This document shows positions 1 through 6,134 of a stretch of 8,480 bases of DNA, in pieces. The first letter of the stretch is position 1, and each line of letters opens with the position of its first letter. The notes beneath the pieces were generated by a model. That model did not search any database, was not told where the DNA came from, and worked only from the letters and a program-made list of their open reading frames with translations. Location: assembly GCA_035528375.1 (NCBI GenBank), contig DATKYS010000084.1, positions 1-8,480 on the forward strand, read 5' to 3'. The position numbers and the translations under genes were made by a program. The DNA comes from a bacterium. Its GTDB lineage: Bacteria > RBG-13-66-14.

Positions 1-164
1 GTCGGGGGGCCGGTGTACGAAAGAGGATGAGTCGGGGGGCCGGTGTACGAAAGAGGATGAGTCGGGGGCCGGTGTAGGAAAGAGGATGAGCCGGGGGGCC
101 GGTGTAGGAAAGATGAGCCGGTCGGGGGGCCGGTGTAGGAAAGATGAGTCGGTCGGGGGGCCGG
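1..164. repeat. Degenerate ~30-bp tandem repeat upstream of rpmJ
   Basis: Six head-to-tail units begin at about 1, 31, 61, 90, 121 and 152, with spacings of 30, 30, 29, 31 and 31. The core is a G-run motif (GTCGGGGGGCCGG) followed by TGTA(C/G)GAAAGA(GGA)TGA. Units 1 and 2 are identical, and the last is cut off after GTCGGGGGGCCGG. There are no unique spacers, so this is not a CRISPR array. The indels break every reading frame and each unit carries a TGA, so coding is unlikely. The array touches the window edge, so its full length and the upstream gene are unknown. Confidence 0.9.
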
Positions 165-3313: not shown

Positions 3314-3336
3314 ACCCCCTCGGTGAGGGGGTTTTT
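3314..3336 (+). terminator. Rho-independent terminator of the alpha operon
   Basis: An 8-bp stem is formed by ACCCCCTC (3314-3321) and GAGGGGGT (3325-3332) around a 3-nt GGT loop, followed by a T-run (3332-3336). It lies 24 nt after the rplQ stop and ends the ribosomal-protein transcript before the repeat/tRNA region. Confidence 0.9.
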
Positions 3337-3341
3337 AAATG

Positions 3342-3418
3342 CCCGTCTGCGGCGATGAGTGTTGAATTGAAATAGATTCTCCCCGCGACTGCGCCCCCTA
3401 ATATCGGGGGGACAGGGG
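3342..3418 (+). repeat. Family 1 repeat, copy A (divergent, solitary)
   Basis: The most divergent of five copies. The head (CCCGTCTGCGGCGATGA) matches CCCGCACGCGGCGGTGA of the others. It is followed by the AT-rich box GAATTGAAATAGATTC, then CTCCCCGCGA and a C-run/G-run hairpin (CCCCC around 3393 with GGGGGG around 3406). The repeat begins only a few bases after the alpha-operon terminator. About 70 bp of unrelated sequence with short complementary GTCCC/GGGAC runs (about 3427-3447) separates it from copy B. It is not next to a tRNA. Confidence 0.75.
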
Positions 3419-3493
3419 TGTAGGGCGGTCCCGTGGGACGAGTCCCCTGCGGGCCGCAGCGATGGGGGCGGAGGTTATTAAAGGGGTATCACA

Positions 3494-3579
3494 CCCCGCA
3501 CGCGGCGGTGATTGCCGAATTGAAATATAATTCTCCCCGCGAGCTTGCCCCTCAAGATGGGGGGGTTGGGGGGAAGGGC
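3494..3579 (+). repeat. Family 1 repeat, copy B (first of pair B-C)
   Basis: Head CCCCGCACGCGGCGGTGA, AT-rich box GAATTGAAATATAATTC (an imperfect dyad with GAATT/AATTC ends), then CTCCCCGCGAG, a C-run, AAGAT and long G-runs. It contains a perfect TATAAT at 3526-3531, but nothing like TTGACA lies 16-18 bp upstream, so I do not call a promoter. An A-rich linker of 17 bp separates it from copy C. The period from B to C is 103 bp. Confidence 0.85.
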
Positions 3580-3596
3580 TTGGAAATAAAAACACG

Positions 3597-3691
3597 CCCC
3601 GCACGCGGCGGTGACCATCGAATTGTAATAAACTCCCCCCGCGAGGTTGCCCCCTCAAGATTGAGGGGGTTGGGGGAGTTGAGGGGGTTGA
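3597..3691 (+). repeat. Family 1 repeat, copy C (abuts tRNA-Ser(UGA))
   Basis: It has the same head and box as copy B. Its hairpin differs: CCCCCTCAA (3650-3658) is matched by TTGAGGGGG (3661-3669), so both arms change together relative to the pure C7/G7 hairpin of copy E. It continues into further G5 runs (3672-3676, 3683-3687) and ends with TTGA directly at the first base of the mature tRNA. Four G-runs in a row make it a G-quadruplex candidate on the + strand. Confidence 0.85.
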
Positions 3692-3778
3692 GGAGGGCTA
3701 GTCCTAATTGGTAAGGCAGCGGACTTGAAATCCGCCGGGCTTCGGCCCATACAGGTTCGAATCCTGTGCCCTCCGCCA
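3692..3778 (+). tRNA. tRNA-Ser(UGA)
   Basis: An 87-nt class II tRNA with encoded CCA (3776-3778). The acceptor GGAGGGC (3692-3698) pairs with GCCCTCC (3768-3774), and the discriminator is G3775. The anticodon stem GCGGA/TCCGC holds the loop CTTGAAA, with TGA at 3726-3728. The long variable arm GGGC-TTCG-GCCC is the serine hallmark. The T arm is ACAGG-TTCGAAT-CCTGT. The D stem is a short GTC/GGC with one wobble pair, as is usual in serine tRNAs. It should read UCA and related UCN codons. No promoter is obvious upstream; the 5' side is occupied by repeat pair B-C. Confidence 0.96.
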
Positions 3779-3780
3779 GC

Positions 3781-3853
3781 AGCGTAGCGCGCTGCACCGC
3801 GGTTCCGCGACGGCACGTTCACACGTTCGATGGTTCGGCGCCGCGAGCGGTGC
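3781..3853 (+). repeat. Family 2 repeat, copy 1 (73 bp, follows tRNA-Ser(UGA))
   Basis: It begins two bases after the tRNA CCA. The first 31 bases contain a small hairpin (GCAGCG 3779-3784 with CGCTGC 3790-3795) and CGCGGTTCCGCG. The arm GCACCGC (3794-3800) is complementary to GCGGTGC at the far end (3847-3853), so the element could fold as one long hairpin with a variable centre. Copy 2 has exactly the same length and the same arms. No T-run follows, so it is not a standard terminator. Confidence 0.8.
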
Positions 3854-3879
3854 CCTTGAATAATTTTGGAATGCCTTTT

Positions 3880-3952
3880 AGCGCAGCACGCTGCACCGCG
3901 GTTCCGCGACGACTCGTTTGTAAATTCGGTAGGTAAGCGCCGCGGGCGGTGC
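3880..3952 (+). repeat. Family 2 repeat, copy 2 (73 bp)
   Basis: Same length as copy 1 and 99 bp downstream of it. The outer parts are nearly identical (the first 31 bases differ at two positions, and the end is GCGCCGCG-GCGGTGC with one change), while the central part of about 25 bp differs at many positions. The arms GCACCGC (3893-3899) and GCGGTGC (3946-3952) are again complementary. Unlike copies 1 and 3, it does not follow a tRNA. Confidence 0.8.
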
Positions 3953-3968
3953 GATTGTCGGCGACCCG

Positions 3969-3998
3969 CTGACACGCAACGGCTCACTCTGCTATAAT
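3969..3998 (+). promoter_or_regulatory. Sigma70-type promoter for tRNA-Ser(GCU)
   Basis: The -35 box CTGACA (3969-3974) matches TTGACA at five of six positions, and the -10 box TATAAT (3993-3998) is perfect, with an 18-bp spacer. It lies about 47 bp before the mature 5' end of tRNA-Ser(GCU). It is the best promoter in the window and could also drive tRNA-Arg(ACG) downstream, because no terminator is seen between them. Confidence 0.8.
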
Positions 3999-4019
3999 TC
4001 CGACGCGCGAGACAACTGC

Positions 4020-4039
4020 TTTTCCCGGCCTCGGGAAAG
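4020..4039 (+). other. Hairpin in the 5' leader of tRNA-Ser(GCU)
   Basis: TTTCCCG (4021-4027) pairs with CGGGAAA (4032-4038) around the loop GCCT; T4020 and G4039 can add a wobble pair. It ends 6 nt before the mature tRNA and has no following T-run. It would lie in the precursor cleaved by RNase P; a role in processing is only an inference. Confidence 0.55.
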
Positions 4040-4045
4040 TGTCGC

Positions 4046-4138
4046 GGAGAGGTGACCGAGAGGCCGAAGGTGATCGCCTGCTAAGCGATTGAGTGCTTAA
4101 TGGGCGCTCCGCGGGTTCGAATCCCGCCCTCTCCGCCA
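4046..4138 (+). tRNA. tRNA-Ser(GCU)
   Basis: A 93-nt class II tRNA with encoded CCA (4136-4138). The acceptor GGAGAGG (4046-4052) pairs with CCTCTCC, and the discriminator is G4135. The anticodon stem ATCGC/GCGAT holds the loop CTGCTAA, with GCT at 4080-4082, reading AGC and AGU. The long variable arm is GAGTGC...GCGCTC with one wobble pair. The T arm is GCGGG-TTCGAAT-CCCGC. It is preceded by a strong promoter and followed directly by a family 2 half repeat. Confidence 0.96.
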
Positions 4139-4168
4139 GCGCAGCGCGCTGGACCGCGGTCCCGCAAC
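4139..4168 (+). repeat. Family 2 repeat, copy 3 (half copy after tRNA-Ser(GCU))
   Basis: Only the first part of family 2 is present (AGCGCAGCGCGCTG then GACCGCGGTCCCGC). The distal GCGGTGC arm is missing. It starts at the tRNA CCA end, so that CCAGCGC (4136-4142) and GCGCTGG (4146-4152) form a 7-bp hairpin using the encoded CCA itself. The position relative to the tRNA is within a few bases of that of copy 1. Confidence 0.65.
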
Positions 4169-4204
4169 CAGGCTTGCCGACTTACCGAGTAACTGCTAAT
4201 ACGT

Positions 4205-4286
4205 CCCGCACGCGGCGGTGAGCGTTTAATTGAGATAGATTCCCCCGCGAAACTGCCCCCCCAGGATGGGGGGGTTGGGGGGAAGG
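4205..4286 (+). repeat. Family 1 repeat, copy D (first of pair D-E)
   Basis: Head CCCGCACGCGGCGGTGA, box TAATTGAGATAGATTC, then CCCCCGCGAAACTG, a C-run, AGGAT and long G-runs ending GGGGGGAAGG. The end matches that of copy B. A linker of about 19 bp (4287-4305) leads to copy E, and the D-E period is 101 bp. About 36 bp of unremarkable sequence (4169-4204) separates it from the preceding half repeat. Confidence 0.85.
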
Positions 4287-4305
4287 TCTCGAACTTAGAA
4301 AAGGC

Positions 4306-4399
4306 TCCGCACGCGGCGGTGACTGTTGAATTGAGATAAACTCCCCCCGCGAAACTGCCCCCCCAAGATGGGGGGGATGGGGGGGTTGAGGGGGTTGAG
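4306..4399 (+). repeat. Family 1 repeat, copy E (abuts tRNA-Arg)
   Basis: Head TCCGCACGCGGCGGTGA and box GAATTGAGATAAACTC. It then has a nested structure: an inner C7 (4358-4364), AAGAT, G7 (4370-4376), and an outer C6 (4343-4348) that can pair with a second G7 (4379-4385). It ends with TTGAGGGGGTTGAGG running into the tRNA, identical over 15 nt to the end of copy C. Very long G-runs make it a G-quadruplex candidate. Confidence 0.85.
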
Positions 4400-4476
4400 G
4401 CGCCCGTAGCTCAGATGGATAGAGCGCCGGACTACGAATCCGTAGGCCGCAGGTTCGAATCCTGCCGGGCGCGCCA
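4400..4476 (+). tRNA. tRNA-Arg(ACG)
   Basis: A 77-nt class I tRNA with encoded CCA (4474-4476). The acceptor GCGCCCG (4400-4406) pairs with CGGGCGC (4466-4472), and the discriminator is G4473. The D arm is GCTC-AGATGGAT-AGAGC. The anticodon loop CTACGAA has ACG at 4434-4436. The T arm is GCAGG-TTCGAAT-CCTGC. A34 is expected to be deaminated to inosine by TadA so that it reads CGU, CGC and CGA. Its 5' end touches repeat copy E. It is followed by a terminator, so it is probably the last gene of the tRNA transcript. Confidence 0.97.
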
Positions 4477-4511: not shown

Positions 4512-4546
4512 CACGCCTTCCGGCTGCCCTTTATGGCTTTATCTGG

Positions 4547-4552
4547 TAAGAT
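4547..4552 (+). promoter_or_regulatory. Possible -10 box for the glycosyltransferase gene
   Basis: TAAGAT matches TATAAT at five of six positions and lies about 38 bp before the preferred ATG at 4590. The region 17 bp upstream (CTGCCC, 4524-4529) is a poor -35, matching at three positions. A promoter somewhere here is expected because a strong terminator lies just upstream, but this assignment is weak. Confidence 0.3.
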
Positions 4553-4589
4553 ATGGCTTTCTCGTTCCGGCCCGATGACGGAGGCACTC

Positions 4590-6134
4590 ATGTTACCCGA
4601 GGAGAGGAGGGATAGAGCCCATCGGCTTGCCGGTTTGCTGGTCGTCCTCCTCCTCGTCCTCTTCGGTCTGGTCAGGGTCGTCTTCTTTCCCTCCGACACC
4701 TTGTTGCGGTACACAAACGACGACACCTTCTACTACCTGGGCATGGCACGCAATCTGGTGGCGGGGAACGGGCTGAGCTTCGACGGTATGCACCAGACCA
4801 ACGGCTTTCACCCGCTGTGGTTGGGTATCTGTAGTCTGCCTTACCTCCTCGGTGCCGGCACTTTCGCCGGGTGGCGGATAGTGATGGCCCTGACGGTCCT
4901 CGTCTGGGGCGCGGGTCTTCTGTTAGCGCGGAGCGTGCTCAGGCGGAGGTTCGGCGAGCGCGGGACCCTGCCGCCCTTGATTCTCCTCGCGTGGCCCCTG
5001 GTTTTCAGTACCTGCGCCTGCGGCATGGAAGTGACGCTGACGTTCACGCTGGTGTTCACCGCGCTGGAAGTGGCGGACCGGTACGGTGTTTTCAAGCTGG
5101 AGGGAAGCCGGCGCGCCGAGCTGGGGATCGGGGCTTTGCTGGCGTTGATCTTCCTCTCGCGGCTGGATTCCTTCTTCCTCCACGTCGCGGCGTTCTGCTA
5201 CCTCCTGGCCGCCTACCGCCGCGCGGGGCCGGGTCACGGAAAGGGCTGGCGCGATCTCGCGGGTCGGTTTCTACGGCTTTTCGGCCCGAGCGTCCTAGCC
5301 CTGGTGGGTTTCCTGGCGTGGAATCAACTGACCTTCGGCCACCTGGTGCCGATCTCCGGGGCGTTGAAGGGCTCCTTCCCCGTACCGAGCTTGATGTTGT
5401 ACCAGGTGGTGAACTACCGGGAAATGGGCCTGTTGGCGTTGTCGGCGCTAGTCTGGGTGGCGGTGAAGCGGCGTGAGTTGGATGCCGGAGTTGGAATCGT
5501 CGCCTGGGGGTTTTTCGGCCAGCTCGCGTACATGCTGCTCTTCCAGAAGTGGGCGTTTTTCGCCTACTATATGGTCGCGCTCGGGCTTCCCGTTTCGATT
5601 CTCGCCGTCGGCCACCTGAGCGGCCGGACGCTTCGGGGGCGGATCAAATTGCGGAGGGCTCTCATCGTCGCCGTGACGGTGGTCGTGCTGGCGGGGCAGG
5701 TCGTTTCCTTGGTCCGGGCCAAATTCGGTTTCCAATCTTACTCGTATCAGGCGGCGCTCTGGGCCGCGGGGAATACCGACGAGGACGCCGTGTTCGCCAT
5801 GACGGACTGCGGCGTGTTCGGCTACTTCTCCGAGCGCTCGTGCATCAACCTGGACGGACTGGTCAACGACTACCGCTACCAGCGGGAGCTGTCCGCGGGG
5901 CGGCTGACGGAGTATCTGGAGGCCGAGGGCGTGGATTACATCGTCTTCCACGACTTGCGCTTCTCTCCGGAGGGCGACTACGAGGCTTACGTGCTTAACA
6001 TCCCGGGGCGGCTGTACGGGGGCATGAGCGCGTACACCCTCCAGCCGGAAGACATCGTTTTTCGCAGTGAGCCTTATCGGTGGAATTACGACACGGACCT
6101 GTTGACCGTGGGCATCTGGAAGACAGACTGGTGA
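4590..6134 (+). CDS. Polytopic GT-C-type glycosyltransferase (ArnT/PMT-like fold)
   Basis: 514 residues from the ATG at 4590, chosen because GGAGG (4580-4584) lies 5 nt before it. In-frame ATGs at 4533 and 4575 have no Shine-Dalgarno. After a first membrane helix (about 13-33) comes an acidic loop motif, NDDTFYYL (43-50), and TNGFHPLW (70-77). This layout is typical of GT-C enzymes, which use polyprenyl-phosphate sugars and an acidic metal-binding first loop. Several more hydrophobic helices follow, then a soluble C-terminal part of about 125 residues, probably periplasmic, with DCGVFGYFSERSCINLDGL. The acceptor and sugar cannot be told from the sequence. It stands alone between a tRNA terminator and mreB, with no sugar-pathway neighbours. 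GT-C membership is fairly secure; the role is unknown. Confidence 0.75.
   Translation: MLPEERRDRAHRLAGLLVVLLLVLFGLVRVVFFPSDTLLRYTNDDTFYYLGMARNLVAGNGLSFDGMHQTNGFHPLWLGICSLPYLLGAGTFAGWRIVMALTVLVWGAGLLLARSVLRRRFGERGTLPPLILLAWPLVFSTCACGMEVTLTFTLVFTALEVADRYGVFKLEGSRRAELGIGALLALIFLSRLDSFFLHVAAFCYLLAAYRRAGPGHGKGWRDLAGRFLRLFGPSVLALVGFLAWNQLTFGHLVPISGALKGSFPVPSLMLYQVVNYREMGLLALSALVWVAVKRRELDAGVGIVAWGFFGQLAYMLLFQKWAFFAYYMVALGLPVSILAVGHLSGRTLRGRIKLRRALIVAVTVVVLAGQVVSLVRAKFGFQSYSYQAALWAAGNTDEDAVFAMTDCGVFGYFSERSCINLDGLVNDYRYQRELSAGRLTEYLEAEGVDYIVFHDLRFSPEGDYEAYVLNIPGRLYGGMSAYTLQPEDIVFRSEPYRWNYDTDLLTVGIWKTDW

Follow-up and report, generated by a model that had tools for sequence, protein, structure and literature searches.

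Inward-pointing repeats at tRNA ends in a little-known Coatesbacteria genus suggest that a repeat family was co-opted to drive tRNA genes

Why should paired copies of one repeat stand directly against the 5′ ends of two unrelated tRNA genes? The stretch of DNA analysed here, which we call the window (8,480 nucleotides), is a contig of a 2.63-Mb draft genome of Candidatus Coatesbacteria (genome G000, genus g1). The genus is little-known, and the literature that we found naming Coatesbacteria contains passing mentions only, outside title and abstract. Among named records, the closest is Candidatus Coatesbacteria bacterium RBG_13_66_14, whose rpoA protein is 96% identical. Genes in the window, named from sequence, are rpmJ, rpsM, rpsK, rpsD, rpoA, rplQ, three tRNA genes, a membrane protein gene, mreB, mreC and mreD, the MreB assignment being supported by Pfam. 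A 30-bp tandem repeat, GTCGGGGGGCCGGTGTAGGAAAGAGGATGA, present in 5.4 copies upstream of rpmJ (window 1–164), is truncated by the contig start. Between the tRNAs and mreB lies a gene for a 533-aa membrane protein (4533–6134) that matched no Pfam family.

An earlier note on this DNA had described five related repeat copies, four of them in two head-to-tail pairs. We located all five, with in-register positions at 3349 (A), 3502 (B), 3605 (C), 4212 (D) and 4313 (E). The spacings of 153, 103, 607 and 101 give the pairs B-C (period 103) and D-E (period 101), and TRF independently calls the B-C array with period 103. The ends of the copies are also as claimed, with B and D ending in GGTTGGGGGGAAGG and C (3679–3693) and E (4386–4400) ending in TTGAGGGGGTTGAGG. 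C runs into tRNA-Ser(UGA) and E into tRNA-Arg(ACG), the end sequences reaching 2 nt and 1 nt, respectively, into the 5′ ends of these tRNAs. A DNA search of the window genome with unit E matched 16 other places at E < 0.002 (best 1e-29), and thus the repeat is not a product of chance. Overlooked until now were two minus-strand copies and a third tRNA gene, tRNA-Ser(GCU), which has its own canonical promoter. The features of the locus are as follows.

3316..3336 (+): intrinsic terminator belonging to the rpmJ...rplQ operon and preceding the first array
3342..3421 (+): repeat unit A, degenerate, the most distal in the tRNA-Ser(UGA) array (E 6.8e-16)
3491..3580 (+): repeat unit B, with -10-like TATAAT at 3526–3531
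3594..3691 (+): repeat unit C, flush with tRNA-Ser(UGA), with -10-like TAAACT at 3629–3634
within 3594..3691 (+): unit C hairpin CCCCCTCAA/TTGAGGGGG at 3650–3669, followed by a G-rich end
3692..3778 (+): tRNA-Ser(UGA) (ARAGORN; tRNA family match)
3781..3858 (-): antisense unit of the same repeat family, abutting the 3′ end of tRNA-Ser(UGA)
3880..3957 (-): second antisense unit in the tRNA-Ser(UGA) 3′ array
3969..3998 (+): canonical promoter of tRNA-Ser(GCU), CTGACA-18-TATAAT
4046..4138 (+): tRNA-Ser(GCU), between the two repeat pairs (ARAGORN)
4137..4168 (-): partial 3′ unit after tRNA-Ser(GCU), hairpin and first bases only
4201..4287 (+): repeat unit D, with -10-like TAGATT at 4236–4241 and a hairpin at 4256–4274
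4302..4399 (+): repeat unit E, flush with tRNA-Arg(ACG), with -10-like TAAACT at 4337–4342 and a C-rich stretch
within 4302..4399 (+): unit E hairpin CCCCCCCA/TGGGGGGG at 4358–4376, followed by a G-rich end
4400..4476 (+): tRNA-Arg(ACG) (ARAGORN; tRNA family match)

Simple tandem duplication of a tRNA gene had been excluded as an explanation, and this holds because the 5′ units carry no copy of a tRNA 5′ end. A known RNA family was also considered (T-box, rtT and other Rfam families), and only the three tRNAs of the window match at gathering score. A phage origin was examined by blastn against phage records, which gave no match. An outer stem, CTCCCCCC/GGGGGGAG, can be drawn in C, D and E; it is not counted as conserved since its AT extension is not retained in other copies. 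Single-strand folding z-scores for units A–E reach only -0.5 to -3.0.

To census the family, we used two sequence models. Nearly all places matched by unit E lie in arrays directly 5′ of the tRNAs Ser(UGA), Arg(ACG), Ala(CGC), Val(CAC), Glu(UUC) and Arg(CCU). The units on the 5′ side of these six tRNAs, which form the subclass of the window, are called class I below. A sequence-only covariance model built from 28 copies (R1) also matched, weakly and over its first 50 positions only, sites adjoining other tRNAs. Flank reading and an iterated profile joined these into one family with a common core, which lies in sense on the 5′ sides of tRNAs and antisense on their 3′ sides. Each unit of about 100 bp consists of an A-rich stretch, a GC core (CGCGGCG...CGAAT...ACTCCC.CGCG), a short linker and a hairpin flush with the gene. 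The hairpin terminates the unit at the tRNA on both sides, and the GC blocks CGCGG and CGCG are invariant in all subclasses.

A core model from 43 units (R2, matches counted at E < 0.05) found at least 76 core matches in the window genome among the best 150 of 1,788 candidates scored. At least 49 of the 76 are directed at a tRNA no more than 500 nt away, 28 at 3′ ends and 21 at 5′ ends. Together, the 500-nt flanks of all tRNAs account for 1.9% of the genome. Four or five further matches, beyond the 49, fall in an insertion-split tRNA-Val array. Of the remaining core matches that we read, most lie at the ends of protein genes, antisense at the stop codon or in sense before the start (ends judged from sequence). 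Orientation is inward in 52 of 55 units next to tRNA ends across four genomes (binomial p 1.5e-12, the units not being fully independent). This is a genuine, genus-specific and tRNA-directed repeat family with inward polarity, wider than previously described. The copies are strongly enriched at tRNAs rather than scattered, which upholds the proposed link to tRNA 5′ ends, and the restriction to 5′ flanks proves too narrow given the mirror-oriented copies at 3′ ends and some copies at protein-gene ends. A separate unit, with TAAACT and a C-rich stretch, lies upstream of an apparent secE near the tRNA-Leu(UAA) gene (window genome C73:80262–80320).

Intergenic repeats in bacteria are usually viewed as scattered and weakly functional. 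The REP/BIME, ERIC and BOX elements surveyed in PMC2267715 resemble this family in being short, dispersed, palindromic, intergenic and lineage-specific. Here, in contrast, the units are tied to tRNA ends, tandem, fixed in inward orientation on both ends of the gene, and conserved in position across species. That survey left out clusters related to stable-RNA genes. The invariant GC blocks in all classes, the period of about 100 bp and the G-runs adjoining the tRNA in class I would also suit an element acting as DNA, either as a site for nucleoid or boundary proteins or as a G-quadruplex or cruciform that keeps tRNA genes open or limits fork–transcription conflicts. However, the G-run occurs only in class I, the hairpins of other subclasses being without long G-runs, and we regard this explanation as very improbable.

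Are the arrays recent insertions or inherited parts of tRNA flanks? We compared the tRNA flanks of the window genome with those of three congeners (G001–G003). Counted over genome pairs, the same tRNA has a 5′ array in both genomes in 19 cases, in one in 9 and in neither in 89; for 3′ arrays the counts are 26, 4 and 88. In these counts tRNA-Val of the window genome was scored present by hand, its array being split by an insertion, and two of the 5′ absences are detection failures, since Ala(CGC) and Arg(ACG) of congener G003 carry diverged class I units. The diverged Ala(CGC) unit retains TATAAT and a re-paired hairpin. At the window locus of RBG_13_66_14, coding DNA is 92–94% identical and the arrays 75–82%; there, tRNA-Ser is preceded by three units in sense and followed by three in antisense. 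Mean unit identity is 79% within an array, 74% at the same tRNA between genomes and 66% between different tRNAs of one genome, indicating in-place inheritance of the arrays with turnover through local duplication. Thus, the arrays are kept at the same tRNAs across species despite sequence turnover, and because they occupy the same tRNAs in the three congeners, the pairs in the window are vertically kept modules of tRNA flanks and not recent insertions. The array at tRNA-Val(CAC) in the window genome is split by an insertion-sequence-like stretch (C107:1–187 and C113:1–197). An 8-bp direct repeat, AAAAAGAA, is present on both flanks of this insert, exactly at the -10 region of the unit nearest the tRNA. 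Each of the two contigs breaks off within the insert, and a 41-aa reading frame in it has no Pfam match.

These comparisons bear on a selfish or neutral origin, in which a MITE- or REP-like repeat inserted at tRNA ends and then expanded in tandem, its hexamers and stems being by-products. Targeting might perhaps use the acceptor stem, which is identical when read inward from both ends of a tRNA. Such a repeat would account for the mirror-oriented presence of the family at both tRNA ends and some protein-gene ends, for copy numbers that differ between species, for the duplicated tRNA 3′ ends in 3′ arrays and for the partial homogenisation of arrays. However, there is no sign of moving copies: close relatives do not show different insertion sites, the same tRNAs being occupied in G000–G003. 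No unoccupied site was found with which unit ends could be compared for a target-site duplication. Side-specific features (a -10 in class I, the longest A-runs on 3′ sides) also argue against it, as does the position of the 5′ arrays where canonical promoters are missing, and we consider it distinctly unlikely. Of the three options raised originally, a recently moving element is therefore unsupported, while a duplicated upstream regulatory block and a leader RNA fit best for class I.

Outside genus g1, the core family was not detected. Searches of G004 and G006–G013 from the wider phylum with R1 and R2 gave only weak, chance-like matches. G005, from another genus, keeps class I-like units. These lie in sense directly before apparent start codons of protein genes, where their G-rich end could be used for ribosome binding.

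What, then, could the class I units do? Where a tRNA lacks a 5′ array, it is in most cases preceded by TTGACA-17/18-TAnnnT at about -40, and the rRNA promoter of the window genome is likewise canonical (TTGACA-17-TAACTT). Using a score matrix trained on the canonical tRNA promoters of this genome, we found a canonical promoter within 130 nt of 1 of 26 tRNAs with 5′ arrays versus 65 of 105 without (Fisher p 2.4e-8). None was found within 650 nt of tRNA-Ser(UGA) or tRNA-Arg(CCU), and the rplQ terminator is situated upstream of the tRNA-Ser(UGA) array. The repeat appears to replace canonical promoters at several tRNAs.

Class I units contain a hexamer, TAnAnT (TATAAT, TAAACT, TAGATT or TAAATT), five bases before CGCG that resembles the -10 of this genome. 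The mean -10 score is 6.1 bits in class I, -0.3 in 3′ units and -0.4 in other 5′ units, and T occupies the first position in 76%, 16% and 14%, respectively, a bias which, like its p-values, overstates independence because class I units have a common origin. Scores under 5 bits occur in about 40% of class I units, one example being TTGATG from the Glu array. C accounts for 76–92% at the five positions that follow the hexamer, which gives the GC-rich composition of a discriminator. Together with CGCGA, this C-rich stretch resembles E. coli rRNA promoters at their discriminator and start, and we treat the likeness as a lead only. The canonical promoter of tRNA-Ser(GCU) is followed by a similar leader (CGCGA...CTGC, linker and a hairpin resembling that of the repeat units), indicating that the repeat hexamer sits where a -10 belongs. 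Two scans found no -35 hexamer 16–18 nt upstream in the units of the window, and no extended -10 is visible in class I units. Because no -35 is visible, the promoter step is one that we infer.

The tandem P1-P2 promoters of E. coli rrn operons (PMC5179076) are similar in placing several start-like modules upstream of a stable RNA, with a TAnAnT -10 and a GC-rich stretch between the -10 and the putative start. Unlike P1-P2, the modules here are closely similar versions of a single ~100-bp repeat dispersed among six unrelated tRNA genes, lack a -35 hexamer and each have their own hairpin.

The hairpin is shared by the 5′ arrays. In the 42 nt after the core, perfect Watson-Crick stems have a mean length of 7.5 bp in class I, 5.7 bp in other 5′ units and 6.2 bp in 3′ units, against 3.7–3.9 bp in shuffled controls. 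About 25 different perfect stems occur at this position, including CCCCCCCA/TGGGGGGG, CCCCCTCAA/TTGAGGGGG, CAAGC/GCTTG, CGAAC/GTTCG, CAAGCTT/AAGCTTG and CCAGCAT/ATGCTGG. Since the stems differ in sequence, it is pairing that is kept and not sequence. At the DNA level, pairing thus appears conserved with change on both sides, as a structured leader would require. The other 5′ arrays (Leu, Pro, Met) have no -10, and at Leu(CAA) two units sit between the tRNA and a canonical promoter (TTGACA-17-TATATT, about 262 nt upstream), an arrangement conserved in three genomes. Therefore, the hairpin leader is common to 5′ arrays and the putative promoter special to class I, and in arrays such as that of Leu(CAA) the units need not be promoters.

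The Leu(CAA) arrangement also favors a reading in which the units are only structured leaders or spacers. The tRNAs would then be transcribed from upstream promoters (those of a neighbouring tRNA, rplQ or apt), and hairpins of the processed leader would shield tRNA folding or direct cleavage by RNase. Hairpins flush with the tRNA that vary in sequence and keep their pairing fit this well. In several class I cases (Ala, Glu, Val and Arg(ACG)) another tRNA is located upstream, and the two could share a transcript. However, such a leader would not explain why the -10-like hexamer is present in class I and missing from the Leu/Pro/Met-type 5′ units and the 3′ units. The terminator between rplQ and unit A also speaks against it, as do putative terminator-like units between tRNA-Lys and the Glu array. 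This reading is unlikely in our judgement.

We propose that class I units are tandem promoter-plus-leader cassettes for tRNA genes, derived from a repeat that on the 3′ side resembles a terminator, a proposal for and against which we see the case as evenly balanced. TAnAnT would be the -10 element and the C-rich stretch after it the discriminator. The transcript would begin near CGCGA and extend across the hairpin and the G-rich end into the tRNA, and the leader would be removed by RNase P. Tandem units would be multiple promoters, each reading through the next. The family, its placement, orientation and conservation, the hairpins, the hexamer bias and the lack of other promoters close by are observed; the transcription steps are predicted from these sequence features.

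Read in tRNA sense, 3′ units consist of the hairpin, the reversed core, a GC stem and then T's, for example CCGCGAGCGGAGCCGTTTTT after tRNA-Lys. The reversed core ending in a GC stem and T's would most likely be a terminator. An A-run of at least four on the unit strand occurs in 53% of 3′ units, 28% of class I units and 19% of other 5′ units (p 0.18 for 3′ units versus class I; 0.007 versus other 5′ units). Non-proximal 3′ units often hold the 3′ end of their own tRNA, which 9 of 32 match better than 95% of other tRNAs. Such copies occur in 3′ arrays only, for example those of Lys, Leu(CAA) and Ala(UGC).

In E. coli, the tyrT 3′ repeats (rtT RNA, RF00391) are tandem units of about 178 bp downstream of a tRNA, in each of which the 3′ end of that tRNA is duplicated. 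Similarly, 3′ arrays such as those at Lys, Leu(CAA) and Ala(UGC) are tandem units with tRNA 3′-end copies. Unlike rtT, the units here are about 100 bp, there is no Rfam rtT match in the window, and the 5′ units of the window are without a tRNA copy. Nothing closer was found in the literature on tRNA-flanking repeats and tyrT repeats.

Taken for both sides, the data allow a broader and more tentative proposal, which we hold to be somewhat doubtful. One modular family may have spread, pointing inward, to tRNA ends and then split into a promoter with a hairpin leader on the 5′ side and a terminator with a hairpin trailer on the 3′ side, both tandem, so that much of the tRNA set would be wired by one repeat. 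If true, this would show a repeat rewiring the expression of core translation genes, and would be a simple case of promoter and terminator arising from one sequence.

Every tandem unit after tRNA-Lys(UUU) (C39:19358–19731) and tRNA-Leu(CAA) (C10:24151–24413) contains another copy of about 20 nt from the 3′ end of the tRNA. Additionally, three sense units, each ending in a hairpin, follow tRNA-Gly(UCC) in the window genome (C73, about 65050–65420). Two of the three are followed by a tRNA-like 3′ end, CACCCCGCTCCA, and the array stands just upstream of the promoter region of tRNA-Thr(GGU).
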